From Bolinopsis microptera (taxonomy: Eukaryota; Ctenophora; Tentaculata; Lobata; Bolinopsidae), in NCBI RefSeq assembly GCF_026151205.1, contig NC_087081.1, forward strand, positions 6,009,246 through 6,073,245: a DNA stretch of 64,000 bases. The letters run 5' to 3'. The notes under the pieces were generated by a model. That model saw nothing but the letters and a program-made list of their open reading frames with translations. It did no database searches and was not told where the DNA came from. Position numbers and translations under genes: made by a program. Positions 10,501 to 49,512 of this stretch are shown piece by piece; positions within the stretch are counted from its first letter, which is position 1; each line of letters opens with the position of its first letter.

Positions 10501-13500
10501 CAGTTTTAAGTTATATCAAGTTATTACAGGGACAAACTAACCCTCTTTAACCCCACAGCCCCGGAGATTACAAACAGTGACAATACACAAACTAACCCTC
10601 TTTAACCCCACAGCCCCGGAGATTACAAACAGTGACAAAACACAAACTAACCCTCTTTAACCCCACAGCCCCGGAGATTACAAACAGTGACAAAACACAA
10701 ACTAACCCTCTTTAACCCCACAGCCCCGGAGATTACAAACAGTGACAAAATACAAACTAACCCTCTTTAACCCCACAGCCCCGGAGATTACAAACAGTGA
10801 CAAAACACAAACTAACCCTCTTTAACCCCACAGCCCCGGAGATTACAAACAGTGACAAAACACAAACTAACCCTCTTTAACCCCACAGCCCCGGAGATTA
10901 CAAACAGTGACAAAACACAAACTAACCCTCTTTAACCCCACAGCCCCGGAGATTACAAACAGTGACAAAACACAAACTAACCCTCTTTAACCCCACAGCC
11001 CCGGAGATTACAAACAGTGACAATACACAAACTAACCCTCTTTAACCCCACAGCCCCGGAGATTACAAACAGTGACAAAACACAAACTAACCCTCTTTAA
11101 CCCCACAGCCCCGGAGATTACAAACAGTGACAAAACACAAACTAACCCTCTTTAACCCCACAGCCCCGGAGATTACAAACAGTGACGCAACACAAACTAA
11201 CCCTCTTTAACCCCACAGCCCCGGAGATTACAAACAGTGACAAAACACAAACTAACCCTCTTTAACCCCACAGCCCCGGAGATTACAAACAGTGACAAAA
11301 CACAAACTAACCCTCTTTAACCCCACAGCCCCGGAGATTACAAACAGTGACAAAACACAAACTAACCCTCTTTAACCCCACAGCCCCGGAGATTACAAAC
11401 AGTGACAAAACACAAACTAACCCTCTTTAACCCCACAGCCCCGGAGATTACAAACAGTGACAAAACACAAACTAACCCTCTTTAACCCCACAGCCCCGGA
11501 GATTACAAACAGTGACAAAACACAAACTAACCCTCTTTAACCCCACAGCCCCGGAGATTACAAACAGTGACAAAACACAAACTAACCCTCTTTAACCCCA
11601 CAGCCCCGGAGATTACAAACAGTGACAAAACACAAACTAACCCTCTTTAACCCCACAGCCCCGGAGATTACAAACAGTGACAAAACACAAACTAACCCTC
11701 TTTAACCCCACAGCCCCGGAGATTACAAACAGTGACAAAACACAAACTAACCCTCTTTAACCCCACAGCCCCGGAGATTACAAACAGTGACAAAACACAA
11801 ACTAACCCTCTTTAACCCCACAGCCCCGGAGATTACAAACAGTGACAAAACACAAACTAACCCTCTTTAACCCCACAGCCCCGGAGATTACAAACAGTGA
11901 CAAAACACAAACTAACCCTCTTTAACCCCACAGCCCCGGAGATTACAAACTGACAAAACTCAAACTAACCCTCTTTAACCCCACAGCCCCGGAGATTACA
12001 AACACTCAGCTGGTATCTCTTACCCCCGAGGGAGAGGACGCAGTGATACCGTGTGAGGCTACTGGTTACCCTATCCCAACCGTCAAATGGACACTGGACG
12101 GTGAGCAAACCTTTCGTTATTAACTTTTGAAGAAAATCTTAGAAAACATAATGCCTCTGGTATCTAACCAAATCAGAATTTATAATTATAGCGTTGTTCG
12201 TATTAAAATCAAATATAATCTAACTCTAGAACCACTAAATATGAACTGCACGCAACAGAATTAAGTCCGGGAATTTGCTTGTAATTTTCATAAATTTACT
12301 TAATTTTTTTTCCAGAGTAAGTTCATACTGTTTATTCTACAGAGTATTAATGATTGGTGTCGTCGAGCTTTTAAGTACTCAGTACCCAGTTCAGAATTCA
12401 GGAACCAAATTCAGCGGGGAATGTTTACAGTTTTTAGTGCAGTCAGGTGGAAGTAGAACTATGAACATTACTTGTCAAGTTCATAACTGTAAAATATGCC
12501 CACGATTGCAACAGATTAATGAATTCTAAGGAGCGTTCAATTAGTATTACATAGGTACCTGTAACGCATATCGTAAATCTTGACTGACGGTTATACGCCC
12601 AAAACTGGAATAAATGGCACGTGCATTATGCTAAAAAAGAAACTCATTGAGCCATGGAACTCTGACTTTTTTATTGTGGGAGAGACACCTTCTCGCAAAA
12701 ATTCATTATTCAAGCATATTATTGTAATGGTAAAACGTTTATGTCAGAATCGACCGAATACATAATATCCCATCGAAATATAATTCTGAGTGAAAGAAAT
12801 TCGTAATTAATAAATCAACAGACACCTTTCGAGCATTATTGAAATCGATCGCCCGACTGGGCCTTTTTTTTAAATGGTTCGAATTCCGGGACATTTCATC
12901 TCTCAATATTTTATCCAAATATTTAAGCCCCTATTTTATACAAGTATTTGAAAAAACCAATCATAAACCTGAAAGTACTATCAACTAGGAAAATTACGAG
13001 ATCCATATTGTCTAAGACGTAGACGTAACGATCTCTCAAAGTATTTAATACTCTTGAATCGCGATCAGAGTTCTTGTACAGAATGAAATTAAGTTGCGTA
13101 GAACAAAGAAGTCCTCGTACAACATGTCTACATAAATGACTGAACTTCCAAGAAGGAATAATTTGGGTCTGAGTTCCGACTTTTATAGGAGGGGTTGACT
13201 ATAGCAGCCCTTTAGTTTCCTTACATTAAATCGTGCTGCACTGTAAATAAGGTATGGTATTATTAGTATCCACCACTCATAACATTATATATGGTGATCA
13301 CCACTTTAAGTTTCAACATCAGTACTTCAGTAATATATAATGTCAAGAGATAAAATCTAAATAGTACGTGATTATTATATCGGGTCTCAATAAGAGGTCT
13401 CGACTGACTAGGCATCAAACCTTGGCAATTGGTAATTTTCCTCTGGCCCGGAGTCAGCTGACCCTAGGGACCAGAGGATAAAGGCGTAGAGACTGTGTGT

Positions 13501-19500: not shown

Positions 19501-22500
19501 AAATAAATAAATTCTAACATTTATTACACGCTTCGACATTAAAATATACCCAACAAAGATGTACATTAAAGTCATTCAAGCGAGACTTAGTGTTGAAATA
19601 GCAAGATTATGGACTTTTTAAACAGTTCAGATTTTATGAATAAATATTTGTATGAAGTTACCAAAATTATGCACTTTCATATCAGTTCAGACATTATGGA
19701 CAAATATTAGAAATATTATCAAAAGCTAGTTGGAAATAAAACGTCTTTAGGGCATTTTTAAAACATTCTACAGATGATAATGATCTCACTGAGTAGGGTA
19801 GTTCATTCCAAATTTTTGGTCCACAAAACATAAATGCAGCATCTGTTCGTCTGAAATGAGGAGCAGGAGGAACTTTCAACAAATAAAAGTCATCGTCTAG
19901 TCTGGAACTTTGTCTTCGTACTTCCCTTAGATTGACGTGTCCTTGTAAGTACTGAGGGGCTATGTTATTAAGACACTTGAAGACCAAAAGTGATATTTTG
20001 AACTTAATTCTGAACCGAACAGGCAGAAAGTGGAGCTTTTTGAGGTAAGGCATGATAGGTTCACGTATCTTTTTTCCGTAAAGACCAAAGATAAATCTAG
20101 CAGCATTGTTCTGTATCTTTTGTAGCTTATGAAGATTCTTTTCTGTTAGTCCATAATAGACTGAGTTGCAGTAGTCTATGAAACAGAGGATATTGGAGTG
20201 AACTAGCTGAACTTTTAGGTCATGGGAAAGCTTCGAACCGATTCTTGCTAAGTCCCTTTGATTCAAATAACATACTTTGGAGACAGCATTTATTTGAGAG
20301 TCCAGATTCATTTGGTGATCGAAAAGGAATCCCAGGTTCTTGGCCTTGCTAACAGGGCAGATTGAGAGGTCTCCTAAATCCATTGTCTGGATTGGGCTGA
20401 CATATGGTCCTATATCAATGAACTCTGTTTTTTCATCATTCAGTTTTAGGAAGTTAACTGTCATCCATTGCTTTATCTCCAGAAAGCAATTTTTCACAGC
20501 TGTTAAATCAGGATTAGAACTGTGAACATCAAAAGTAAAGTACACCTGTGTGTCATCTGCATACAAATGTATCGAGAAACCATATTTTGTGACAATTTCT
20601 TCAAGATCTCTGGACTCTGGTATACAATATGAACAGTAGTGGTCCTAAAATGGATCCTTGAGGTACACCAATATCCAGATAGCCTTCAGAAGATGTGGCT
20701 TTTTTTACTTTAACCTTGAATGTGCGATTATTAAGGTAACATTGTAACCAGCTGAGTGCTAGTTCTGTAATACCATACGCATTCTTGAGTTTCGTAAGAA
20801 GGAGGTTATGGTTTATGGTGTCGAAAGCAGCTGATAGATCTAAGAGTAGAAGCACAACATTCGATTTGCTGTCAATCATCATTAGAATATCATTATGTAT
20901 TTTGGTAACTGCAGTTTCACAACTATGGAATTTTCTATAGCCTGATTGATATGGGGAAAACAGGTTGTTGACATCAGCATATTCATTTAATTGGCAATGA
21001 ACTACTTTTTCTAGTATTTTGGACAGATAAGTTAGATTGCTAATCGGTCGATAGTTTTTCAGCTCATCAACATCTAAGGTAGGTTTCTTGAGTCCAGGCC
21101 TAATAGATGCTTCTTTTAGGGCAGATGGAAACTTTCCGACTCTTAGTGATTCATTCACGATGTAATGGATGATTGGGAGAAGCTCGGGTAAGCATTTCTT
21201 GAAGAGCCACATTGGTATGACATCGAGTACGCTTGATTTATTGGGAAGACTCTTAATTAAGGTTTCAAGGTCTGATAATGAGACTTCCTTAAACTGATTA
21301 AGTCTACACTTTGCATTATCTATCGAAGTAGAGTCCTTGGTACCTTGACCGTTTAGGGAAGTGTTTTGAATTTCCTTCTCAATATTAGAGTAAATGGTCT
21401 TTACTTTTTGATCGAAGAAAGTCTTGAGTTTGGCAGCCACTTCGATATCTTCACCATTTGGCAATTTGTTGGAGCCATATTCCTTATCTAAAAGTTTATT
21501 TATGACTTTATAGGTCCCTTTCGAGTCTCCTTTGCAGGAACTGAGCTGTTTATCATAGTAGCCATCCCTAGCTCGATTGATAGTGATTTCTGCGTCAACA
21601 CATTTTTCAAAATGAGTAGTTTTAAACTCACCATTCTCTGGATACTTTTTGGCTTTTCGTTTTGCCCTTCTCCTCTCTCTGACAGCAATTTGACATTTAT
21701 TATCCCAAAAATCAGACTTTTCAGCAGTAAATCGTTTCGTAATAAGTGGGGCATGTTTGTCTAGCACCTGTTCAAGGACATTTTGATAAAGGTTCACAGT
21801 CTCGTCTAAGGATTGATATTCAGAAAGGTTAAGCTCTGAACAAAACAGATCTTCCCTGAACTTATCGATGTCAATTTTGCTTAGCTCTCTGACATCTTTT
21901 TCTTCATATGTACGAGCTTTATGAAGATCGAATGTGACTGGGACCTGAAAACTTACTAGATAGTGATCAGAGCTGGTTCCAGTGCTTGTCTCTACCATCA
22001 TATCTGTTACAGACAATGAGTCACTTACACAGCCTAGAGTAAATAACAAGTCCAGTGTCCCGCCGGAGATGTGAGTAGGAGAGTCGACATGCTGAAGGAA
22101 GCCTTTGCTCTCACAAAGAGCAATAAAGTTCTGGGCAACATTATTGTTCAGGTCTTCAACATGGAAATTAAAGTCACCACAAATAATTGGAGATCCAGTT
22201 TTAAGCAGAAGATTGTCCAGGTATCCATCAAAGTCATCCATAAACTTAGATATTTTTGTTTCATCATATTTCGCTTTGGCCTGAGTGCTGCGATAAACTA
22301 CACATAGCCTGATAATCTCACCAGCAGTTTTAATGACACATTCAAGTACTTCAAAAGATGAATATTTAGTAACATCATTGCGTACAGGCGATATCATTTT
22401 GGGGTTGAAGAGAAAACCAACACCACCTCCCCTACCTCTTCGAGGGGCACTGATAATATCGAACCCAAAATCACGGATTTCGGCAAACTTTGCCCGATCA

Positions 22501-25500
22501 TTAGTATTTAGCCAAGTTTCCGTGATACAACAGATAGAAATCGAGTTATCTTTAAGCATTTCTAGTACGCCACAAGTTTTGTTGCATAGAGACCTTGCGT
22601 TGAAACAACCAATAGAAAGCTGTGATTTCTGTCGATTAGCACCTAATTTCACATTACGTTTTTTGAAATAAAGTCAGTGTTAGCAGCAATACGTTTAGTT
22701 TCTCTTACCAACACAGGACAATCGTAAGCTGCCGCATTATGTGTTCTTGAATTCTCGGCATCATTTAAGTTAAGAATGGGGGACAAGTTCATTCGAAACT
22801 AACTTTATACGTCTATAGCAAGGGTACTACATCAGCGTAGGCTATTTAATCAGCGTATTTCGAGTTAAACGGTCGCTATCAAAAATATGAGAGTTAAAGG
22901 ACAATATTTTTCATTTCCTCAGAATCATATTTGTTTTTTGTCTTTGGCGACCTGAAAGCAGCGTAAAGGAACGCATGAATTGAAAAGAAATTAAATTCTG
23001 TAAACTGATTTGCGGTCGTTCTAGAATCTAGATGATGTGCGATGGGCCAAATTCGCATTTTTGTGGCCTATCATCGATTAACGATTGACGATATTCACGA
23101 AAGTAATTTTGTTTAAAAGAATAGAATTCGACTACTTATTAGTTATTACTCCAAGAAACGAAATGTCGCATAATATCATTATTCTATTATTCTCGCTTAA
23201 CGTTTGCACGTGAATGACACTCAAATCACACACTGCTGTCAACTAATTCACAAATCCCGGGAGTGTGGTACGCAATGAGCCTCACGTGCAATTACCTGAA
23301 TAAATGCAATATCTCTGGTCAAATGATATTGCATTTATTTTATAGCGCTATAAAACTTACGGCATATAATGTCTGGAGGCTTATACTAAACGGGTCGTTT
23401 AGTCATCATATGATATTACGACAAATATCATAACAAATATCACTTCGAATTTTACCACAAATATTCTTATAGAAATAACGATAAATGTTACTAACTCACC
23501 GTTTAAAACATCGAATAATAGTTGCTGCTATAAGAGTAACATGATATCAGAATTATACCGTAAAATATAGCTGATGGCTTTCTCATAAATAATTCTACTG
23601 GTGTTTGAAACCGTACTAAAGTAACATGAACAGTGAACACCTTGCACTAATGTGATTGGTCATTAAAAAGTTATCATTTCAGTCTCACAATAGTTACAAC
23701 AAATAGGTACAACAAACAAGCTAGAAACATACAAATTATCTAGCTCGAGATGTTTTGAGGGTTCCGAATAACAGAATCATTTCTAGAATTTGGTACCATT
23801 TGCGCAACAAGTTTATAAGTAGGGAGTAATACCCTCTTTAACATCAACCAGAACTCCCGCTAATTTAAACCTGAACCACTAAATAACTTTTAGGATCGTT
23901 TAAGTATTTCAATCGGTTTATATTAAGATCAGCAGCAATTAATGATTTTTATTTTTTGATAAATTCCAAACCATTCCTTTTATTGAAATTACCATATTCT
24001 TTATGTTTCCTTTTTCGAAACATTTCCTTGTGTTTTAACTCCTTCGGTTTATTATAAATTGTTTAATAATATTTCCTTGTGTTTACAATTCCGTATTTTC
24101 AGCTGGTAATGGGAGCCGATAATGGACGATACGTTTGCACTGCCGAGAATTCTGCTGGAACAACTGAATCCACTATTGTCGTCGCAATTTGTAAGTTTTT
24201 AGTTTTTCATTTTTTTCAATAGTTCAATGATGAGTATTTTTACTATTCTAGGTATCTTAAGATCTTGGTTGTAGCTCAGAGTTGAAAAATGTCGTGGAAT
24301 GAACTGATACAGTACAGACCGTTCTTCCATACAAACCGCCGTAGTGACATGGTCAATAAACACCGTAGTGACATGGTCAATAAACGTGCCATGTCTTCCA
24401 ATACCAAAATTATAGTAATACGTTATATAAATCACAGTGCTGGCAAGCACGAGCGGTGTCTTTATTGGGGGTATACTATGTACCCCCTTTACTATTTACC
24501 CCCTTTACTATTATACCCCCTTTACAATTATACCCCCTTTAGTACACGTTACAAGCCTCTCTCGTGCACGCGAAGCGTGCACTCCGGCCGGAGGCGGCGG
24601 CCGAAGGCCGCCGCCTCCGGCAGGAGTTTTTCAGGCATTAAGACTCATCGGAAGTCGTTCAGCAGATTTATTTTTAGTTCAAAACATTCTAATTTGATGT
24701 CAAAGATGACAGGAATAAAAAATAGTTATGTTGAGATTTTTTAAAAATTTGCATAAAATACTCGCCAGCACTGTTATACGAAATTCGGTAAAAAACCCAA
24801 AATCGCCATATTCAGGTGCCTTAAAAACCATGTTAAAATTGAGTTAGAGATCTGAAATTTTTCAGGGCGTCTAGACGTTGATCAAATCGACTGCAAAAAA
24901 AGTTTCAGGTTTCAGGAGCATCGGGAAATGGGTTTTCTAGAACCCCTGTTTTACGATAGATTGTCGTGATATATACATACATATATATGTATATCCCTGA
25001 ATATATATATATATTCAGGGATAGACGCTTTGCCAGTCAATTGTAGCCTGTATTTAAGTGTCCATAGATTCAAAAGTATAAAAGATACAGCCATTTCCGA
25101 CCACAGGTCTTGCAAATAATTGTTTATACTTTAGTTTACATTGTATAAACAAATTATTTGACGTCATAAACACCCCTTGATGACGTCATCAAGTTAACCG
25201 TTTTTAAAACTTGATTTTTGACAAAATAATAACTTTTCAAATTAATTTTAAACCATTAAGGAGTAATTTTATTCAAAATCTGAGGAAATTTTCACCTTAG
25301 ATAATTGTTCAAGCATTCTGAAAATCTACCGGAAAGTTTTTCTAGCTTGCTCCTTCATAAAGATATTCGTCATTGAAGTTTGTGTTTTTTTGAAGAATTA
25401 TTTTATAAAAACGTCAATTTTGCGATTTAGTATTCTCTGGTTTTGGGCCATGCCTTGGGTTGTGGAGCTCAGTTCTGCTTCCTATAGGTATAAATTGTGC

Positions 25501-27914: not shown

Positions 27915-28853
27915 ATGTCTTCAGATGCTGATCCAGCAGTTGTTAAAAAGATGAAGCAGATGAACATGATGGGCAACATGCCCGGATGGCCTGCTGGAAG
28001 TTCAATGGGTGGTGGACATGGAAGCATGGGTGGTGGTGCCATGGGTGCCATGCCTGGATGGCCTGCTGGAAGTTCAATGGGTGGTGGTGCTATGGGTGCC
28101 ATGCCTGGATGGCCTGCTGGAAGTTCAATGGGTGGTGGAGCTATGGGCGCCATGCCTGGATGGCCTGCTGGAAGTTCGATGGGTGGTGGAGCTATGGGCG
28201 CCATGCCTGGATGGCCTGCTGGAAGTTCAATGGGCGGTGGGGCTATGGGTGCCATGCCTGGATGGCCCGCAGGATCTTCAATGGGTGGTGGACACGGAGC
28301 CATGCCTGGATGGCCTGCTGGAAGTTCAATGGGTGGTGGAGCTATGGGCGCCATGCCTGGATGGCCTGCTGGAAGTTCAATGGGCGGTGGGGCTATGGGT
28401 GCCATGCCTGGATGGCCCGCAGGATCTTCAATGGTTGGTGGACACGGAGCCATGCCTGGATGGCCCGCTGGAAGCTCGATGAGTGGTGGTGCTATGGGTG
28501 CCATGCCTGGATGGCCTGCTGGAAGTTCAATGGGTGGTGGAGCTATGGGCGCCATGCCTGGATGGCCTGCTGGAAGTTCAATGGGTGGTGGTGCTATGGG
28601 TGCCATGCCCGGAGGTTCAATGGGAAGCATGGGAGCCTCAAATATGGACAAGAACGCGTGGCACTTCGTTCCAGGCTGGCCTGGTCACATGAGCCAGATG
28701 CCAGGTATGCCGGGTGCAGGCAAAGCAAGTGGAGCTGCAGTCCCAGCTCAGCAGGCTCAGGCTGGAGGAGAGGGAGGTCATCTTAATGTCTTCTACTCTG
28801 GTCGACCTGATGACGAGGAGGAGGAGGAGGAGGATGAGATTGTGGAGAGCTGA
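27915..28853 (+). CDS. Met/Gly-rich repeat protein with acidic tail, or last exon of the Ig-module gene
   Basis: The open frame of 312 residues starts MSSDADPAVVKKMKQMNMMG. It then has 12 copies of MPGWPAGSS within a mostly 17-residue (51-bp) period, AMGAMPGWPAGSSMGGG. A unique tail (MDKNAWHFVPGW) runs through an Ala/Gln/Gly stretch to an acidic end (DDEEEEEEDEIVES). It has no signal peptide of its own. Two models fit: a separate gene starting at the ATG (context CACAATG), or the terminal exon from 27925 spliced in phase to the Cys-rich exon at 26939-27121, which would make it the tail of a secreted matrix protein. Low-complexity Met/Gly/Trp/Pro repeats suggest a structural role. A polyadenylation signal AATAAA lies at 29207-29212. 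Other frames over the repeats are also open and are shadows. Confidence 0.6.
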   Translation: MSSDADPAVVKKMKQMNMMGNMPGWPAGSSMGGGHGSMGGGAMGAMPGWPAGSSMGGGAMGAMPGWPAGSSMGGGAMGAMPGWPAGSSMGGGAMGAMPGWPAGSSMGGGAMGAMPGWPAGSSMGGGHGAMPGWPAGSSMGGGAMGAMPGWPAGSSMGGGAMGAMPGWPAGSSMVGGHGAMPGWPAGSSMSGGAMGAMPGWPAGSSMGGGAMGAMPGWPAGSSMGGGAMGAMPGGSMGSMGASNMDKNAWHFVPGWPGHMSQMPGMPGAGKASGAAVPAQQAQAGGEGGHLNVFYSGRPDDEEEEEEDEIVES

Positions 28854-29874: not shown

Positions 29875-29924
29875 TTACTCTGAAAATGGCTGGATTCTGG
29901 TGAATCTCGAGAGGACGCTCATAC
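29875..29924 (-). CDS. MFS transporter exon 11 with stop
   Basis: Phase 1 in. A short cytoplasmic tail (MSVLSRFTRIQPFSE) ends in TAA. Confidence 0.8.
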
Positions 29925-32900
29925 CTGTTTCATATTCATAGGGTTAATTTGATTAATATAACTGACCATGAAAAAGGGGTTCCTAAGCGTCACTTTTTTA
30001 TTCTTCATACCCAATAAATTGATGCCTAAGAAGTAAAATATTGTAACATTAAGTGAAAGTCTATACTTACGTTCTTCCCGCACAGCTTTTAACACAAAGT
30101 GAAGTAAGCAAGAGAAGAGGAAGGCAAGAAGGGAGCAGAATCCGAATATGTTCATGATTCCCTTCCACTGTAGGACTATGTGCCATCCCAGCATCAAAAA
30201 ACCCTGAAAATTAGAAAGTGTTCGCTTTCGAATTCGTATCAGTAAGTTTCACCACGATCTAATTATTGTTGGTAGAGGGAAATTGAATTCCTACCAGGCT
30301 GTGCCCCCAAAGCTCACTAGTTGGAATTCCGTCCGCCAAACGAATTAAATTCTTGGAGTCACTGCATATTTTTCAAATAAGCTTTAACTGTAAACAACAT
30401 AAAAACTTATTGTACCTGTAGTAATGCTCCAACACCCTGGCTGATATAAAGGAAACCAATCTTTAGCTTGGTGTTTTTGCAACCAAAGAAAGTCATTGCA
30501 GCTGCAGGAAGGAGAGAGAACCCGCCGGCAGATGTAAAGATTATTGCTGACACCCACACAAAGTACATCGGCTAGAAAAATATTTTTAAGGATTTTGTTA
30601 AGTATAACTTTGTCCGATCAAGGATCACACAAGTAAAAGTAAGTAACTGTTTATATTAAAATTACTGCTCGATCTATTATCTATTTAATTTTATAAAATG
30701 TTGGTTATTCTTAACTGTTTATAATGATAAAAGTTGATTTTCATTAACTTAAAATTTAAAATACAGTTAAAAGGGCCATCTAATCTACTTAGGACGTCCG
30801 GCGAATAGCCTTACTCTTAGGGAGGGGGTGGTTTCGGAATTTCGGACAAATCCGGACAGGGGGATCGTGGTTTCTAACAATCCTGATGTCGGGAAATTTT
30901 TGCAGAATTAACGAAAAAGTCAACTCTTTGACTGATCTAATTACTCTGTAAGCACTAAGCAGTAAGTTTAGATCCCTGTATTTTGAACGAGTACTTAAAT
31001 GTACTTAAATTTAACTGTGCTATAAACTTGTTCGACACTAAATGTATTATTGTCTATTTTAAGTAACTACACATTTTATTAACAATGAATTTGAATTGGT
31101 TTTATTTGTACTCCTAGAAGGAGCTGCAAGCTGGAAAGGGGGGAGGGGGTGGTCTGAAAATCTGCGATTTTGGCAGACGTCCTAAGTAAATAGCCCCAAA
31201 GTAGTTTTTAGCACGAACCTCTCCTCCTAATTTAGTAGCGTAGAATGTGAACATCAACAATGTCAGGACTCCTGTTTGAACCATCAATGTTTTCTGAATA
31301 CCTGGGACGAGAATCATTCATTGGTATTTTTTGGTATATGATCTGTTCGCTCACTAGAACTTTAACAACAATCCATTTTATTTTAACCTGGTCACTCAGT
31401 GCGGGGACTCACCACGCCCTGTTTTATTGGCTGATTGCTTTTTTCTTCTATTTCTAAATAATCACCATTTGATGATATTCAGTAAGTTCTTCTGACACAA
31501 ATCTTTGTCAATCTGACATTCTGACTGTCTGGTCATAACTGATTATATTTAATCTATGAAGTTTTGAAAATTGCTTAAGAAATGATTTAAAAGTTGGAGA
31601 ATTACATTCCCATATTTTAATTACCTATGACATCACTAAGAGTTCCCCAAGCCAGCCTGCCACCCCCGTTCATGAGACCGGCTATTGCTCCTGTGGTCGC
31701 CAAGAAGTGGTCATTGTTGATGAAGGACTCTCCAAAGACTTTACTTAGCGAGTTCATGAAGATGAAATCGCACCTGATTATGTGAATAAATTGACTATGT
31801 TGTAGGGACAAAAGGATTTCGCGATTATTTTGGCCAAAAATCGCGGTACCGCGAAATTTAACAGGCTATATATTAAACTATACATAAAATTTGTCGCGGA
31901 GAATGGGAAATTTCGCGATTTCGTACATGCCGCGAAATCCTTTTGTCCCTGGTATGTTGTAAAACGTTTTGTCCATCATTTCGGTTCGATTATTTTTAAA
32001 TATTGCAAATATTGAACTCAATGTTGATTATCCAATAAGAATTAATACTTTAACGCAATTTCCTGTTACTCATCTAATAGTAATACTAATAGTAATAGTT
32101 CGATCGGTAACAGATATATGTTATGTTTAATGGATAACAATTTAACATGTAACCGGTTTGTTCATATGATGTGACATGTGGCTATTAAACTGTCGTGACG
32201 TTCGTAACCATGAGAGTAATTTATAGTAAACGGCATGACAAGTAACAGTTCTCTTATAGCTATTAACCGCACAAACGGATAAACAAAATCACTTGTAATT
32301 CACGGAGTGACTCATACCCTTTTCTGCTTACTTTTTCGCTAACAAACCTTTCTTTTTAAAAGAATTAATAAATAAATACAAAAATAAACATCACTCAGCT
32401 GGTTACCTGCCAAGACCGAAGATAATGAAGAACACCCAAAAGTGAGGGCTCTTGACCATTTTAAAAGGCTGAACATCAGGTTCTAATAACAGTGGGTCAC
32501 TGTCTATCAACTTGAGTTTTATGCCTGAAAGCTGCGTCTTCTCTTCCTCTGTCGGCCGGCTTACCTACCAATGAAATGAAATTTGTTTAAAATAATTGCT
32601 AACAAACTGAGCTTCAAAATAAAATCATTTATTGATGGTTTTATACCCAATGCTGCTATAAGATTCATTTATTTTCCCATGATAGTCATTTGAAGCACTT
32701 ATAAAATATTTTAATACTGAACAAGCGTTGAGTGTAACATAATTTTTGTTAACAAACCAGAGTGACCGCGATTGAAAGAAGGACACAAGAGACGGCTGAA
32801 ACGATGAGGAAGGATTGTGGTACCCGTTTCAGGAGGTCATGTTGTGTGAAATATTTCTCGTCTGGGTAACCCTGTAGCAAAAATCTCAATAATTGTTGTC

Positions 32901-35900
32901 ATGTTTTTTGATAATTTAGCATTTAAGCTCTGAATGATTCACATAAGTTGTTTAGGTTTTATTCATGGTTAAACTCTGACTACAACTCTTTACAAGTTAC
33001 CTGGGGACCCGGCCCAGGCTATTGTGTTCATTAACATAGACAATAGAGATTCGGCGGAATCACAGGCTGATCGCCGCCCTGTAATTTATAAGGTGATCCA
33101 AAGACCAAAGGCCATTGAAAAGAAAAAGGGGTTTGGTCTGGTACACGTGACTCACCACATAAGGGGCGTGATCTGGTACGTGACTCACCACATAAGGGGC
33201 GTGGTCTGGTACGTGACTCACCACATAAGGGGCGTGGTCTGATACGTGACTCACCACATAAGGGGCGTGGTCTGGTACGTGACTCACCACATAAGGGGCG
33301 TGGTCTGGTACGTGACTCACCACATAAGGGGCGTGATCTGGTACGTGACTCACCACATAAGGGGCGTGATCTGGTACGTGACTCACCACATAAGGGGCGT
33401 GATCTGGTACGTGACTCACCACATAAGGGGCGTGGTCTGGTACGTGACTCACCACATAAGGGGCGTGATCTGGTACGTGACTCACCACATAAGGGGCGTG
33501 ATCTGGTACGTGACTCACCACATAAGGGGCGTGGTCTGGTACGTGACTCACCACATAAGGGGCGTGATCTGGTACGTGACTCACCACATAAGGGGCGTGA
33601 TCTGGTACGTGACTCACCACATAAGGGGCGTGGTCTGGTACGTGACTCACCACATAATGGGCGTGATCTGGTACGTGACTCACCACATAAGGGGCGTGGT
33701 CTGGTACGTGACTCAACACATAAGGGGCGTGATCTGGTACGTGACTCACCACATAAGGGGCGTGGTCTGGTACGTAGTTCCAGGGGTTGATGAAGGCAGA
33801 TTGGATAGCAGCAAAGACAAAGCCGCTGAACCCACTCCCCAGTGCTGATACCCCCGCTGCTAGACCTCGTTTCTTGGGAAACCACTCCATTGCAGTGGAC
33901 AGGAACGTTACCAGCAATACACCTTAGAATTAGAATTTGTTAAAATCGTTAGAGTTATAAGATACTGTAAGACGTTTAGATTATCTCCAAACTTCCAAAA
34001 TATTTAACCTGCTATATTCCATGTGCAATCGGGACTAACAACTGCAGATATGATGCACAATGTTGTAATTTATGAAAATAGTACTGACAATGAAACGAAT
34101 AATAATATTACTAATATTATTAGGGAGTTATAACTATAAGATCTCTTAAAGAATAGTATTACCTTCGCAGTACCCCAGTATACAGTAGATGACAACAATG
34201 GCTCCAAAGCTTTTAAGAGCCACAAAGTTTAGCATCAGAGAAGCTATAAAGACTGCACTTACACCTATCAGTGACCACGTATACCCTGTCATTAATTTCG
34301 TTATAAACTCTGTTTGATTAGAATAATTGTATCTTGTGTTTCCAGAGGTTTATTGCTCCGTTTCAATATAATTTGAAGTGTTTCGTAGTCCCCTCACAAG
34401 GAGTTTTGTGTTTTATCATTTTCCACAACAAGAAATGTTTAGTATAACCGCTTAGAGCATGTACGAGTATCACAATGAAGTAATGAAATAAGTAAGTACG
34501 AACCTAGAAGATACTCTAGGAGACTACCAGTGAACATAGTAACTGAGAGGATAATGGTACACATGATCGGTACAAAGGAGACCCCACTCGATCTGACGTC
34601 TGAACCCTACGAATATTAGTTATAGTTCTGGGGCTTTTTATGGTTCTTTTGCGATAGTCTAAACGCGATAGCTAGCGCTAGTTAGCACTAATTTTAGCGC
34701 TAATTAGCGCTAACTGGCGGTAGATAGCGCTAATTATCGCAATAGTTTGCAATAATTATCGTTAACTATAGCTGAGCTCTAGGTAGCGCTAGAAATCGCG
34801 TTCAGACTATCGCAGAAGAACCCTTTTTATTTGTCAATGCTGTGAGATAAAACACAAAACAGAAATTTATTGATCAATTTACAAAAATAATACATCATAA
34901 TAATATAAGTATAGCATAAATAATGGTTAATAGATGTAATGAATTTAATAGCATCGATGAATTTGATTACATTAATGTATTTAATCGCCATAATGAATTT
35001 GATAGTAATTAGTATTAAAGTATTAATGAATTCAAGAACCTTTATGAATTTAACAATCTTAATGAATTAATGACTTTTGATTAATGAATTTAATATAATA
35101 CATGAATTCAATAATCTTAACGAATTTAATAACCTTAATGAATTTATTAGATTCTGCTTATTTGGTTCACAGGTTTTTCCTAGACTTTTTGTTCGAACTT
35201 TAGCTTTCTGTACAAGATTTTTTGTTATCTTAGAATTAATTCCGCATTTATATTATTCCCACTCTCGACTCCTTGCTAGCAGTCCGGTTAATTTAGTACC
35301 TCTAGGTAACTTCTCATTTAATCATGAGGACTTATTAAAGAACATCTCACCCTCTAAGATTTTCACCGCTTCGTTCATTTTATAGATTTATTCTTTTTCT
35401 ATTTTTACTACACTTACTAACACGTGCATATTACGAAGGAGTAGATAAGATGCCTCCGCAGGCATTTTAGAACGTTTTATATTTTATCACTTCATGCACG
35501 GCTGCCATTCTGCTTATTTGGTTCACAGGTTTTTCCTAGACTTTTTGTTCGAACTTTAGCTTTCTGTACAAGATTTTTTGTTATCTTAGAATTAATTCCG
35601 CATTTATATTATTCCCACTCTCGACTCCTTGCTAGCAGTCCGGTTAATTTAGTACCTCTAGGTAACTTCTCATTTAATCATGAGGACTTATTAAAGAACA
35701 TCTCACCCTCTAAGATTTTCACCGCTTCGTTCATTTTATAGATTTATTCTTTTTCTATTTTTACTACACTTACTAACACGTGCATATTACGAAGGAGTAG
35801 ATAAGATGCCTCCGCAGGCATTTTAGAACGTTTTATATTTTATCACTTCATGCACGGCTGCCATTCTGCTTATTTGGTTCACAGGTTTTTCCTAGACTTT

Positions 35901-38900
35901 TTGTTCGAACTTTAGCTTTCTGTACAAGATTTTTTGTTATCTTAGAATTAATTCCGCATTTATATTATTCCCACTCTCGACTCCTTGCTAGCAGTCCGGT
36001 TAATTTAGTACCTCTAGGTAACTTCTCATTTAATCATGAGGACTTATTAAAGAACATCTCACCCTCTAAGATTTTCACCGCTTCGTTCATTTTATAGATT
36101 TATTCTTTTTCTATTTTTACTACACTTACTAACACGTGCATATTACGAAGGAGTAGATAAGATGCCTCCGCAGGCATTTTAGAACGTTTTATATTTTATC
36201 ACTTCATGCACGGCTGCCATTCTGCTTATTTGGTTCACAGGTTTTTCCTAGACTTTTTGTTCGAACTTTAGCTTTCTGTACAAGATTTTTTGTTATCTTA
36301 GAATTAATTCCGCATTTATATTATTCCCACTCTCGACTCCTTGCTAGCAGTCCGGTTAATTTAGTACCTCTAGGTAACTTCTCATTTAATCATGAGGACT
36401 TATTAAAGAACATCTCACCCTCTAAGATTTTCACCGCTTCGTTCATTTTATAGATTTATTCTTTTTCTATTTTTACTACACTTACTAACACGTGCATATT
36501 ACGAAGGAGTAGATAAGATGCCTCCGCAGGCATTTTAGAACGTTTTATATTTTATCACTTCATGCACGGCTGCCATTCTGCTTATTTGGTTCACAGGTTT
36601 TTCCTAGACTTTTTGTTCGAACTTTAGCTTTCTGTACAAGATTTTTTGTTATCTTAGAATTAATTCCGCATTTATATTATTCCCACTCTCGACTCCTTGC
36701 TAGCAGTCCGGTTAATTTAGTACCTCTAGGTAACTTCTCATTTAATCATGAGGACTTATTAAAGAACATCTCACCCTCTAAGATTTTCACCGCTTCGTTC
36801 ATTTTATAGATTTATTCTTTTTCTATTTTTACTACACTTACTAACACGTGCATATTACGAAGGAGTAGATAAGATGCCTCCGCAGGCATTTTAGAACGTT
36901 TTATATTTTATCACTTCATGCACGGCTGCCATTCTGCTTATTTGGTTCACAGGTTTTTCCTAGACTTTTTGTTCGAACTTTAGCTTTCTGTACAAGATTT
37001 TTTGTTATCTTAGAATTAATTCCGCATTTATATTATTCCCACTCTCGACTCCTTGCTAGCAGTCCGGTTAATTTAGTACCTCTAGGTAACTTCTCATTTA
37101 ATCATGAGGACTTATTAAAGAACATCTCACCCTCTAAGATTTTCACCGCTTCGTTCATTTTATAGATTTATTCTTTTTCTATTTTTACTACACTTACTAA
37201 CACGTGCATATTACGAAGGAGTAGATAAGATGCCTCCGCAGGCATTTTAGAACGTTTTATATTTTATCACTTCATGCACGGCTGCCATTCTGCTTATTTG
37301 GTTCACAGGTTTTTCCTAGACTTTTTGTTCGAACTTTAGCTTTCTGTACAAGATTTTTTGTTATCTTAGAATTAATTCCGCATTTATATTATTCCCACTC
37401 TCGACTCCTTGCTAGCAGTCCGGTTAATTTAGTACCTCTAGGTAACTTCTCATTTAATCATGAGGACTTATTAAAGAACATCTCACCCTCTAAGATTTTC
37501 ACCGCTTCGTTCATTTTATAGATTTATTCTTTTTCTATTTTTACTACACTTACTAACACGTGCATATTACGAAGGAGTAGATAAGATGCCTCCGCAGGCA
37601 TTTTAGAACGTTTTATATTTTATCACTTCATGCACGGCTGCCATTCTGCTTATTTGGTTCACAGGTTTTTCCTAGACTTTTTGTTCGAACTTTAGCTTTC
37701 TGTACAAGATTTTTTGTTATCTTAGAATTAATTCCGCATTTATATTATTCCCACTCTCGACTCCTTGCTAGCAGTCCGGTTAATTTAGTACCTCTAGGTA
37801 ACTTCTCATTTAATCATGAGGACTTATTAAAGAACATCTCACCCTCTAAGATTTTCACCGCTTCGTTCATTTTATAGATTTATTCTTTTTCTATTTTTAC
37901 TACACTTACTAACACGTGCATATTACGAAGGAGTAGATAAGATGCCTCCGCAGGCATTTTAGAACGTTTTATATTTTATCACTTCATGCACGGCTGCCAT
38001 TCTGCTTATTTGGTTCACAGGTTTTTCCTAGACTTTTTGTTCGAACTTTAGCTTTCTGTACAAGATTTTTTGTTATCTTAGAATTAATTCCGCATTTATA
38101 TTATTCCCACTCTCGACTCCTTGCTAGCAGTCCGGTTAATTTAGTACCTCTAGGTAACTTCTCATTTAATCATGAGGACTTATTAAAGAACATCTCACCC
38201 TCTAAGATTTTCACCGCTTCGTTCATTTTATAGATTTATTCTTTTTCTATTTTTACTACACTTACTAACACGTGCATATTACGAAGGAGTAGATAAGATG
38301 CCTCCGCAGGCATTTTAGAACGTTTTATATTTTATCACTTCATGCACGGCTGCCATTCTGCTTATTTGGTTCACAGGTTTTTCCTAGACTTTTTGTTCGA
38401 ACTTTAGCTTTCTGTACAAGATTTTTTGTTATCTTAGAATTAATTCCGCATTTATATTATTCCCACTCTCGACTCCTTGCTAGCAGTCCGGTTAATTTAG
38501 TACCTCTAGGTAACTTCTCATTTAATCATGAGGACTTATTAAAGAACATCTCACCCTCTAAGATTTTCACCGCTTCGTTCATTTTATAGATTTATTCTTT
38601 TTCTATTTTTACTACACTTACTAACACGTGCATATTACGAAGGAGTAGATAAGATGCCTCCGCAGGCATTTTAGAACGTTTTATATTTTATCACTTCATG
38701 CACGGCTGCCATTCTGCTTATTTGGTTCACAGGTTTTTCCTAGACTTTTTGTTCGAACTTTAGCTTTCTGTACAAGATTTTTTGTTATCTTAGAATTAAT
38801 TCCGCATTTATATTATTCCCACTCTCGACTCCTTGCTAGCAGTCCGGTTAATTTAGTACCTCTAGGTAACTTCTCATTTAATCATGAGGACTTATTAAAG

Positions 38901-39333
38901 AACATCTCACCCTCTAAGAAAACTCCGTTTGAAGATATTTTGTATTATTATCTATGTATAAATTTTCCTTGTGTTTGAATTCTGTCACTTTTTAACTGTT
39001 TCTAGTATTTGTTATTTTCGGCCGATTTCTGCACTTTTTCACTGGGTCATCTTCATATTTTCTGGGATGGAGACGACGCATATCAGCATTTAAGGAAGAG
39101 TTACTTCATTAGACTCTTCTGGTCAAGGACAACATGACACCTAAAACTTTGAACATAACACGAGGAAACATGGACAAAACTGAACAAGAACCACATTCGA
39201 AGACTGAAACATCTGAATGACTCTGCAACCCAGGAATCCACTACTCAGTTATCATCGCTAAATGATCGGTTTGGTATCGACGTTACATACTTTATTATTT
39301 TTTTTAAAAAGAAAAAGAGGCTGATTTTAGTTT

Positions 39334-39371
<38 letters not shown>

Positions 39372-40205
39372 CTTCCTTCAAAACATTCCAGTACATTGTG
39401 CAGAAAGTTGGAGATGAAGCCGTAGTACGTACATGTAGCATTCTACTGGATCGAACTTGCAGAGTGTGGTTTCCTCCAATCTGGGCCGAGCGTTTATATA
39501 AACATACACGGCGCAGATCGACTGGAGGAGATTGCACTATGTAGGCTCCGGTGTAATGTGATATGTATGTACTACGGCTTTACAAATTTTGGAAGCATGT
39601 AAGGATATATCTGATACCTATCGTATATACTAAAAATACTCTAGCACAATTGTAACTGCAGTTTCACAGAACTCTAAATGCTTAATGAACACTCTTGCAG
39701 GTACCACCCGTATTCACACTCAGACCTGAGTTTAGTCATTTCCCGATACGAGATTGGGGACGGGTTCTATAAACAAACAAACAAACAAACAATGAATTTA
39801 TTAAGGTTAATAAATTTATTAACCTTAATGAATTTAATCGCCATAATGAATTTAGGCAAATAGGTACAATACCGACCAGATATTAACCGTCTAATAGCCA
39901 GTTGTCACGGTAACTAACAGCTGGCTATTAGTCAATAGCCAGCTGTCACTGTAACTATAAACAGCTGGCTATTAGTATTAGCCAATAGCCGGTTGATAGT
40001 TGGTCGGCATTGTTCCGATTTGTCATGAATTTAATCATAATAAACTCACATCCTCTCGAAGATAAGACACCACGTAGAGCAACACAGTCCCGAAAGAGTT
40101 AACAGGGAACCCTGAAGCTAGGTTACCAAGGCAACAAGCAGCCAGGACCTTGTAGGCTTTAATATCTGTATCGGTGAGCATCTTGGTCCTTACTGACACC
40201 ACCAT
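29875..40205 (-). CDS. MFS transporter, oxalate:formate antiporter / monocarboxylate-like, 11 exons, 465 aa
   Basis: Exons in order of translation: 40050-40205, 34504-34606, 34163-34285, 33750-33922, 32758-32871, 32407-32564, 31625-31773, 31219-31301, 30416-30571, 30071-30203, 29875-29924. All junctions are GT-AG and phases agree; the sum is 1398 bases including TAA. About 12 hydrophobic segments are spaced as in the major facilitator superfamily. Diagnostic pieces are the TM4-5 region (EWFPKKRGLAAGVSALGSG, residues 140-158), EKYFTQHDLLKRVPQSFL after TM6, a polar central loop (residues about 225-262) and the second-half motif NGGGRLAWGTLSD. It probably moves a small organic anion across a membrane; the substrate is not predictable. 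The start at 40205 follows an in-frame TGA; a second in-frame ATG lies at 40181. Exon 4 ends in a 33-bp tandem array that copies its donor. Confidence 0.92.
30071..30203 (-). CDS. MFS transporter exon 10
   Basis: Phase 0 in, 1 out, donor GTAAGT. It encodes IFGFCSLLAFLFSCLLHFVL (TM12) and KAVREE. Confidence 0.92.
30416..30571 (-). CDS. MFS transporter exon 9
   Basis: 52 codons, phase 0 on both sides. It encodes FVWVSAIIFTSAGGFSLLPA and IGFLYISQGVGALLQ (TM10-TM11). Confidence 0.92.
30572..31218 (-). other. Transporter intron 8
   Basis: AT-rich with no recognised element. GC-poor except near 31130-31150, where a GGGGGAGGGGG stretch occurs. Confidence 0.6.
31219..31301 (-). CDS. MFS transporter exon 8
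   Basis: Phase 1 in, 0 out. The acceptor CGTCCCAG (not the later TTCAG) is chosen because it alone fits the phase. It encodes TLMVQTGVLTLLMFTFYATK. Confidence 0.85.
31625..31773 (-). CDS. MFS transporter exon 7
   Basis: Phase 2 in, 1 out. It encodes FMNSLSKVFGESFINNDHFL and NGGGRLAWGTLSDVI, the second-half MFS motif. A hAT-like MITE sits 29 bases upstream of its acceptor. Confidence 0.93.
31803..31951. mobile_element. hAT-like MITE
   Basis: The ends are inverted repeats (TAGGGACAAAAGGATTTCGC and, reversed, CAGGGACAAAAGGATTTCGC). The flanks CTATGTTG and GTATGTTG match in 7 of 8 bases (or 9 of 9 if offset by one: TATGTTGTA), as for a hAT target duplication. It is 149 bp and lies within intron 6 of the transporter. 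Confidence 0.8.
32407..32564 (-). CDS. MFS transporter exon 6
   Basis: Phase 0 in, 2 out. It carries the central polar loop (SRPTEEEKTQLSG) and the start of TM7 (HFWVFFIIFGLG). Confidence 0.92.
32758..32871 (-). CDS. MFS transporter exon 5
   Basis: 38 codons, phase 0 on both sides. It encodes GYPDEKYFTQHDLLKRVPQS followed by TM6. Confidence 0.92.
33001..33088 (+). repeat. Dispersed about 85-bp repeat, copy 1
   Basis: It starts CTGGGGACCCGGCCCAGGCT and ends with a GGCGGAAT, CAGGCTGA, CGCCGCCC series. Other copies are at 46580-46655 (minus), 47463-47548 (plus) and 48731-48801 (minus). Both ends are conserved while the middle drifts, so it looks like a small mobile unit. It has no match to a known SINE that I can name. 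Confidence 0.65.
33148..33776 (-). repeat. 33-bp array carrying a 5' splice site and in-frame codons, 19 copies
   Basis: On the minus strand each unit reads VPDHAPYV then GTGAGT (or VSH if translated). The unit thus contains the end of exon 4 and the start of its intron. Units 2 (TTGAGT), 4 and 17 carry single differences; 18 of 19 retain a GTGAGT donor. The frame is open through all 19 units and stops at 33060. Confidence 0.95.
33750..33922 (-). CDS. MFS transporter exon 4, ending in the donor array
   Basis: Phase 1 in, 0 out. It encodes EWFPKKRGLAAG and INPWNYVPDHAPYV, then donor GTGAGT. The next 18 downstream repeat units keep the frame open, so later donors would lengthen this exon by multiples of 33 bases. 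The shortest form is annotated because it matches the family's usual length here. Confidence 0.85.
34163..34285 (-). CDS. MFS transporter exon 3
   Basis: Phase 1 on both sides. It encodes TM3 and TM4 start (WSLIGVSAVFIASLMLNFVA, GAIVVIYCILGYCE). Donor GTAATA. Confidence 0.9.
34504..34606 (-). CDS. MFS transporter exon 2
   Basis: Phase 0 in, 1 out. It encodes GSDVRSSGVSFVPIMCTIIL and on (TM2). The donor is GTTCGT, the same unusual form used by exon 8. Confidence 0.88.
34642..34822. mobile_element. Palindromic hAT-like MITE
   Basis: 181 bp with an exact 8-bp target duplication (CTTTTTAT at 34634-34641 and 34823-34830). The terminal inverted repeats are GGTTCTTTTGCGATAGTCT and, reversed, GGTTCTTCTGCGATAGTCT. 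The interior is reiterated AGCGCTA / TAGCGCTAA palindromes. Confidence 0.88.
35151..38921. repeat. 356-bp satellite, about 10.6 near-identical copies
   Basis: The unit starts ATTCTGCTTATTTGGTTCAC and repeats exactly every 356 bases. I found no differences by eye between copies, which suggests recent amplification or homogenisation. It contains a small hairpin (TGCCTCCGCAGGCA). The frame at 35077-35385 is not a gene. Confidence 0.95.
39336..39545 (-). mobile_element. Possible tRNA-derived SINE with poly-A tail
   Basis: Read on the minus strand, a tRNA-like box B (AAGTTCGATCC) and a weak box A (CGGCCCAGATTGG) about 30 bases before it precede a sequence of about 100 bases. This ends in a poly-A tract (the T run at 39336-39372). 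Target duplications were not found, so it could be another retroposed transcript. Confidence 0.35.
39855..40024. mobile_element. Palindromic hAT-like MITE
   Basis: 170 bp with the inverted ends GGCAAATAGGTACAATACCG and, reversed, GACAAATCGGAACAATGCCG. It is flanked by ATGAATTTA on both sides (8-9 bp; the flank is itself a repeat so the exact length is ambiguous). The interior repeats AGCTGGCTATTAG / CAGCTGTCAC type words. Confidence 0.8.
40050..40205 (-). CDS. MFS transporter exon 1
   Basis: 52 codons, phase 0 out, donor GTGAGT. It includes a short N-terminus and TM1 (YKVLAACCLGNLASGFPVNS). Confidence 0.85.
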
Positions 40206-47720: not shown

Positions 47721-49373
47721 GCGTTAATTTCGGCCAGCACAATTTTCTTCAAACAAATAAATATTGAGTATCCTTCCCGACCTCCGATTGCAATAAAAAT
47801 TGGTAAGCTTGCCTGCTTGCTCATAGACTTACAAAGAAAGTGTCCGAAAAATTTAAAGCTTATTCAACAATCTAATCAGACATTATGTTACAGCTAAAAG
47901 GAGCATATTTTGCTTCATTTTAATTACTATATCAACCCCGATATATAAATCCGAGCAAGTTTGAAGTTTATTTTTATCGTGCAACCTTTAATTTAAACCC
48001 ACCTACCTTGTTCTCCAAAATCCATGTTTTTGTGCAAAAACGTCTATTCGTAACCTTGAATTTTGTAACAATTTAAATTGACAATCCGCGACAGAACGCG
48101 GTAAATTTAATCAAATGAATAAAGCTAATTAGATTAAAGGTTGAATATTCAAAAACTTTTAATCTAAATATCAAATTGTATAGAAAATAGAAATTGGGCC
48201 CAATATACTGAAATTTGTAACATTAAAACGTCAGACGAGGTGAGAGCTAACGAGTTTATCCACTGAAATGGCATTAAAACGGTACAAAATTCAATGTTTT
48301 TGGTACAAAATTTGGTCAATAATATGATTGATGGAACCCTTTATGAGCTAGGCAAACTGGTTTGAACTTCAAAAACTATAATATAGCTTGCCTAATACCC
48401 CTCACACTATATACTCTATACATTTACATTCTAATGTTACGTTATTCAAGTTCCGCAGCCATTTTATCTAATTATACGAACAAGGATTGCTGTCCACAAG
48501 TTTCTCTAACAGCCCATTGAAAAAGTGTTACACAGAAGTGCATTACAAAATTCAATATCCAGGGACTAATTGATAGCATAGTATTATTATTTTGAGTTAG
48601 TATTACTATTTTGCACAGATCCGTGTCAGGTTGCATGAACAATAAAGTTAAACATATGGTTACATCGAAATAAATTTTTCGTGCACATAGAAATATACAC
48701 GATTTTCAAATTCAATATGGAATTATATCAACTGGGCGGCGCTCGGCCTGTCACTCCGCCACATCTGCGTGCTTATAAACAGCAAAGACTGGGGTCCCCA
48801 GGTGGTATGGAACATGATAAAATACTCCATCACGGATCGGGAAATTGAGCGGCCATCCACAAAAGAAAAGCGGCCGCATTTCTTGTTAGAATCTTGGACC
48901 TCATTTTTTGAAAAATTTTTGAGGTTCAAGGCCTATCTCAAAATTCTGTCCAGCTAATCTCTTCGAAATAATCCCTAGAAAATATCCTGAAAGTTTCAGG
49001 GAGATAACTCAAAAACTGTAGAAGAAGATAGATTTTCAGACTCAACTTTCAGGGTGTGCGATTGAAACTTGCTTCGCAATACAATAACAGATGAGTGCTG
49101 ACCTTGGATCAGTGATAACATCGGCTATGAAAAATATTTTTCCATGCAACTAAATGCAGCTGATGCAACGAATCACGATCGTCTATCAGAAACAGCTATT
49201 AAATAATTTTTGAGAAAAACCCCCACCGATATTAAACCCTAACTAATTTCTTAAGCTTTAGTCCCTCACCTGAGTTTTATCTTGGTATTCCATTCTGTTC
49301 TCAAACAAAACCCAAATTATTCTCCTCTAGGTGTTACCCTTTGAATTGTCCTCACTGATATTTTCTCTGACAG
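47721..49373. other. Upstream region or 5' UTR intron of the kinase gene
   Basis: AT-rich, with one repeat copy at 48731-48801. The frame 48769-48957 derives partly from that repeat and is not supported. Confidence 0.5.
48731..48801 (-). repeat. Dispersed about 85-bp repeat, copy 4
   Basis: Reverse orientation; GGCGGAGTGACAGGCCGAGC with CGCCGCCCAGT matches the conserved end, and CTGGGGACCCCAG the start. Confidence 0.6.
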
Positions 49374-49512
49374 AGAAAAGCATGTAGTCAGTCAAAATGT
49401 TACATTCATGGAGGTGGATTTGTATTTTCATGGAAATGTAGACAGAGAGACGGCCGAATGCAGGCTTATGCTATACAGCAGTAGTGATGGTACTTACCTT
49501 ATCAGATCAAAG
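49374..49512 (+). CDS. Kinase gene exon with start of SH2-1
   Basis: Acceptor TCTCTGACAG, donor GTGAGT, phase 0 out. The frame is open upstream of the ATG at 49408 to the acceptor, so the true start could be in an earlier exon. Starting at 49408 gives MEVDLYFHGNVDRE, like Syk-type N-termini, which begin just before the first SH2. Confidence 0.85.

Follow-up and report, generated by a model that had tools for sequence, protein, structure and literature searches.

A 33-nt tandem array repeating a splice donor across an exon-intron boundary of an MFS transporter gene, most likely a long in-frame mirage

The stretch of DNA analysed here (the window, 64,000 nucleotides) carries on its minus strand a gene model for a transporter of the MFS type, in which the end of the fourth exon and the splice donor behind it are repeated many times into the adjoining intron. 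The features of this gene are:

29875..40181, minus strand: MFS transporter gene model with 11 exons and a product of 457 aa, the coordinates covering the coding part with its stop (splice model, Pfam, PDB)
33750..33922, minus strand: exon 4, 173 nt to the exon-adjacent donor, encoding the predicted TM5 and the first part of the loop that leads to TM6 (phase-consistent splice model, hydropathy)
32758..32871, minus strand: exon 5, which follows the acceptor of intron 4, begins GYPDEKYF and encodes the predicted TM6 (splice model, hydropathy)
33145..33775, minus strand: 33-nt tandem array of 19 units across the exon 4/intron 4 boundary (Tandem Repeats Finder, unit listing)
33744..33749, minus strand: exon-adjacent donor GTGAGT of unit 1, taken as the main donor (unit listing)
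33711..33716, minus strand: broken donor TTGAGT of unit 2 (unit listing)
33150..33155, minus strand: last intact donor, in unit 19, which if used would give a 655-aa protein (unit listing, splice model)
33126..33149, minus strand: degenerate 20th unit with a 2-nt insertion and 3 mismatches (local alignment)

Several other elements share the window. Two SH2 domain pieces (Pfam 7.7e-05 and 3.1e-04), presumably Syk-like, lie at 49345-51219, and the long open frames at 19694-22673 may encode an endonuclease and a reverse transcriptase like those of CR1/L2-type retrotransposons. An open frame at 27915-28853, 312 aa long when read from the first ATG, contains an MPGWPAGSSMGGGAMGA-type repeat with a 51-nt unit and had no match in Pfam. 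There are also two inverted repeats, a near-perfect one at 14300-16238 (two arms of 840 nt or more with 99% complementarity, a spacer of 259 nt and mirrored open frames) and another at 62325-63507 (574-nt arms, 99% complementary) whose spacer is just 35 nt. The matches to Ig, SH2 and MFS domains, together with an intron-rich gene, are compatible with an animal.

The transporter model was built from open frames, splice signals and homology. It runs on the minus strand from 40181 to 29875, its phases are all consistent, and its 11 exons form a single open frame of 457 aa. Up to an E value of 0.1, two distinct PDB sequences match the protein, the oxalate:formate antiporter 8hpj (OxlT, 3.4e-15) and a lactate transporter (0.023). 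Hydropathy gives 13 windows over threshold which, because they include three overlapping pairs, represent 10 distinct segments; the TM4 and TM8 regions stay under threshold. Exons 4 and 5 meet behind residue 177, in the stretch that separates the hydrophobic segments 141-159 and 198-216; by their place in the MFS fold, these segments would be TM5 and TM6. In the usual MFS topology the loop between these two helices faces the cell exterior. The location that the preliminary description had assigned to the repeat, the TM5-TM6 loop of an MFS transporter, is thus borne out by hydropathy and by the Pfam MFS_1 match (1.3e-17, 64.2 bits with a cut-off of 33.4; residues 24-372, profile positions 9-317 of 347). 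As for the remaining architecture, ten exons measure 50-158 nt, and of the nine introns besides intron 4 eight measure 146-647 nt and one 5443 nt. The last of these, the 5.4-kb first intron, contains at 35151-38919 a tandem repeat of its own, in which a 356-bp unit recurs 10.6 times with hardly any change.

Tandem Repeats Finder describes the array at the exon 4 boundary with a period of 33, 19.1 copies, 97% matches, 0% indels and a score of 1178. With the boundary placed as in the gene model, it begins 26 nt within exon 4 and extends into intron 4. Read on the minus strand from 33775 to 33145, it consists of 19 near-identical copies of the consensus CACGTACCAGATCACGCCCCTTATGTGGTGAGT, in a register that sets the donor GT at 33749 and then each 33 nt down to 33155. 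Both this program and the unit listing confirm the earlier observation that the exon end plus GTGAGT recurs as a 33-bp unit, with the donor intact in 18 of 19 copies; the exception is unit 2 (exon end 33717), which reads TTGAGT. Two details had to be adjusted: 33750, given earlier as the donor, is correct as the last exonic base while the GT itself begins at 33749, and the regular series of donors predicted every 33 bases below it has the right grid, although the one at 33717 is the broken one. Altogether GTGAGT occurs 36 times on the two strands of the window; half of these, 18, lie on the minus strand within the 0.64 kb or so of the array, and the 18 outside it correspond to 0.14 per kb per strand. 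Scored against the U1 donor consensus, the exon 4 donor has 6 matches and one wobble. Its strength is unremarkable, as 6 or 7 matches occur at every one of the ten donors in this gene.

Variation among the in-register units is confined to five columns. One is a C/T column with 9 C and 10 T, another differs through the opening base of unit 1, and the remaining three hold singletons, among them the change to TTGAGT in unit 2. When the C/T column (CTCTCTTCTTCTTTCCCCT) was searched for a higher-order period at lags 1-7, the best agreements were 7/12 at lag 7 and 9/17 at lag 2, with no clear super-unit. On the intron side, the degenerate 20th unit (33149-33126) is identical to the unit at 19 of 22 aligned positions, and its local alignment score was reached by 0 of 2000 shuffles. 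Could the array, or its copy number, be an artefact of assembly, or the gene a decaying copy? Units that are 97% alike are indeed the type of stretch that assemblers expand or collapse, but here the point changes sit at fixed places among the units and the intron-side edge is degenerate, and phase and open frame are kept over 11 exons, which speaks against decay. We therefore regard both possibilities as very improbable.

Further sequence searches returned little. The 33-nt repeat pattern had 0 matches in viral contigs, the protein of exons 4-6 had 16 pattern matches there with no relative among them, and a scan of the window with Rfam gave nothing at the gathering threshold. A Pfam RNA_bind match to the translated array (1.4e-08, 35.1 bits, cut-off 27.9) was rejected as a repeat artefact, given that no single stretch passes alone.

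Does an array lying over a splice site call for a special cause? Arrays with a Tandem Repeats Finder score of at least 200, 14 after merging by hand, cover 24.7% of the window. Only 1 of the 20 junctions of the MFS gene is touched by them. When the arrays were shifted circularly, a mean of 4.9 junctions was touched and 84.8% of the shifts touched at least one, so that no special cause is needed. Nor can an avoidance of splice junctions by arrays be claimed, because 15.2% of the shifts leave all junctions untouched and 7.2% touch a single one, 22% in all. An array that spans a junction and survives would be one that leaves the splice site usable, this being what selection would permit.

Joined to 32871, the 19 unit ends yield proteins that grow by 11 aa per unit from 457 aa to 655 aa, each with the terminal stop only. 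The earlier claim that the frame stays open through all units, each adding the residues VSHVPDHAPYV, consequently stands. However, such an open frame is cheap, since a unit made of about 27 coding nt plus a few intron nt needs only a length that is a multiple of 3 and some three new codons without a stop. The chance of an in-frame, stop-free unit is about 0.29, that is, 1/3 for a length divisible by 3 times 0.87 for stop-free new codons. In the window, the unit length is divisible by 3 in 4 of 13 arrays with listed units, a list that leaves out the TCC-rich array at 54650-55989 because its period is ambiguous. The open reading frame of the array is thus largely a by-product of the length and origin of its unit. 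The count of constraint leaves aside the C/T column as well as the initial base of unit 1, which sits at the array edge. All three singletons change the protein, compared with 76.8% of random changes, and one of the three changes the donor hexamer, where 0.55 would be expected without selection (6/33 positions). Donors and peptide show no sign of constraint, on a count of only three changes that has little power.

One reading of the open frame is that the last, intron-proximal donor is used (exon end 33156). The whole array would then be exonic, the TM5-TM6 loop would contain a repeat of 198 residues, and alleles would vary in loop length. We weigh this against the mirage interpretation set out below because of an effect of SRSF1 and because equal competing donors reportedly, in work of Reed and Maniatis in 1986 and of Eperon in 1993, tend to be spliced intron-proximally. 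In mammals, SRSF1 favours the intron-proximal of two competing donors and hnRNP A1 the intron-distal one (PMC5585400). The frame, open across all 19 units into exon 5, agrees with this reading, as does the size of the intron that would be left, 284 nt after subtraction of 18 units, which resembles most others in the gene. On the other hand, exon 4 would grow to 767 nt (173 + 18 x 33), far from the 50-158 nt of the other ten exons, the singletons, few as they are, give no hint of coding constraint, and normal splicing is reported for the globin and Adh3 mirages (PMC3087553). On balance we consider use of the last donor unlikely.

A control for donor choice is offered by a second array in the same window, which repeats an acceptor instead:

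10532..12005, plus strand: array of 55-nt units with 27 identical acceptors, followed by an Ig-domain exon (Tandem Repeats Finder; Ig_3 3.6e-08)

The preliminary description had placed such a mirror array in a neighbouring gene; it exists, but about 21 kb away and on the other strand. It comprises 27 copies of CCCCACAG followed by CCCC, spaced 55 nt with a last step of 53, and every unit contains CTAAC and a pyrimidine-rich run. The exon downstream encodes part of an Ig domain (Pfam Ig_3, 3.6e-08). In the phase that matches acceptor 11986, 1 of the 27 acceptors is open and in frame, namely 11986 itself; with any incoming phase allowed, 11933 alone among the 26 acceptors above 11986 reads stop-free into the Ig exon, in another phase. 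At most one of the 27 acceptors is therefore usable per phase and, if the Ig gene works, the animal's splicing machinery has to single out one copy. The simplest assumption is that, of these identical acceptors, the exon-adjacent one is chosen. By analogy, a choice of one copy may hold for the donor array as well, which lends support and is not proof, since donor and acceptor choice obey different rules; as a control for the mirage reading, it also assumes a working Ig gene. A short exon-like stretch at 24103-24190 carries the latter half of an Ig domain (DNGRYVCTAENSAG). By hand count its phase does not fit a direct join to 12100, which implies more exons in between if both belong to one gene.

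The preliminary description had further proposed that alternative choice among the donors generates a ladder of isoforms. In this reading, 18 equal donors would be picked at random or by regulation to give transporters of 457 to 655 aa. It draws on the identity of 18 of the 19 donors, all in frame, and since every intact donor preserves the frame nothing purges alternative use. Published cases can be read in the same direction: repeat-bearing exon ends in human paralogs often come with alternative transcripts (PMC2812944), and the authors of the globin study noted that repeated splice signals could serve as cryptic sites (PMC3087553). Against it, the first step of the ladder is missing, because the unit adjoining the native one carries the broken donor; the donors are without visible constraint over the three changes; and the mirror acceptor array is incapable of such use. 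Predicted RNA structure does not single out any donors either. Structure was rejected as a donor selector: with local pairing modelled, P(9 nt unpaired) is at most 0.001 at all 19 donors and P(6 nt unpaired) is 0.002-0.023 at the 18 intact donors and 0.171 at the broken one, and all 20 shuffles of the array fold as well as the array itself or better. With a frame that is cheap and donors that bear no mark of constraint over the few changes, the ladder gains no positive support, and we judge it quite unlikely. Its fullest form, in which the 18 identical 5′ splice sites are used in parallel so that one allele yields 0 to 18 extra 11-residue units in the loop, over a range shifted by copy-number mutation, seems to us about as unlikely.

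How, then, could a splice donor be repeated 19 times without harm? The reading that we consider probable is that of a tolerated minisatellite at an exon-intron boundary, a mirage, in which the exon-adjacent donor at 33750 is mainly used. The unit lies across the exon-intron boundary as the gene model places it, and the splice signal recurs in many units (GTGAGT in 18 of 19). A 33-nt segment containing the exon end and the donor would have been copied and multiplied through unequal exchange or slippage. Because nearly every unit has the same donor, any change in copy number keeps a good donor on the exon side; gain or loss of units would thus be tolerated and the array could grow into the intron. 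The donor at 33750 would serve most or all of the mRNA, giving the 457-aa transporter, while units 2-19 would be spliced out as intron and the other donors would rarely be used. Exon and intron sizes suit this reading: exon 4 then measures 173 nt beside ten exons of 50-158 nt, and once 18 units are subtracted intron 4 comes to 284 nt, similar to most introns of the gene. The degenerate edge unit, the lack of visible constraint on the donors over three changes and the acceptor control point the same way. What varies would then be the copy number in the DNA, and variation between alleles is likely by the precedent of the amphioxus gene BflGb6. The standing given to the four explanations was set in view of donor choice in mammals and of the transcripts from human duplications. 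Most likely, we are dealing with a new case, a long in-frame mirage, and purpose-built variation in protein length is less likely.

A window with 18 identical in-frame donors and 27 identical acceptors, only one of which could be usable, is a natural experiment on the choice made by the spliceosome. At issue is whether this choice follows adjacency to the exon, nearness to the acceptor, or chance. In addition, if the host animal is not a cephalochordate, the range over which mirages have been described becomes wider.

The first description of mirages is said to be the Adh paper in NAR in 2002. Among other systems in which a repeat meets a splice site, Rogers-type intron gain, where AGGT in a duplicated exonic segment gives rise to a new intron, was considered and rejected: the unit consensus is without AGGT, and even with no additional unit present intron 4 connects two coding exons. 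In the potato RdRp gene a tandem duplication likewise includes a splice site (PMC4974935), but no new intron is required here, where the array lies at an intron between two coding exons. The repeats found in human segmental duplications are also minisatellites, with units of 30 bp on average, some of them at exon-intron boundaries, and they alter gene structure (PMC2812944). In that study, 66% of the repeat-driven intron changes also have a transcript with the repeat kept in the exon. Those repeats average 4 units and were recognised by comparison of paralogs with transcript support, which includes alternative transcripts. The literature searched on boundary minisatellites and splice-site duplications, some of it available in part, contained no array that combined so many units with an open frame, which is not proof of absence in print.

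The nearest counterparts are the amphioxus mirages of Adh3, TnC, globin and PGBD5 genes, in which a minisatellite multiplies an exon-intron boundary together with the splice signal there (PMC3087553, PMC3902484). Those in Adh3, TnC, BflGb6, BflGb9 and PGBD5 are like the present array in having a boundary-spanning tandem unit with the splice signal repeated. According to these reports, mirages occur at both 5′ and 3′ boundaries and the units of Adh3 measure 10-72 bp; the Adh3 mirage shows somatic instability; and the Adh3 data and globin RT-PCR suggest that regular splicing is undisturbed, which the authors inferred for PGBD5 as well (PMC3087553, PMC3902484). In BflGb6, units at the edge escape homogenisation, and the degenerate 20th unit may be compared with these (PMC3087553). 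The haplotypes of BflGb6 have 6 and 3 units (PMC3087553), compared with the 19 of the present array, whose 33-nt unit keeps the frame.
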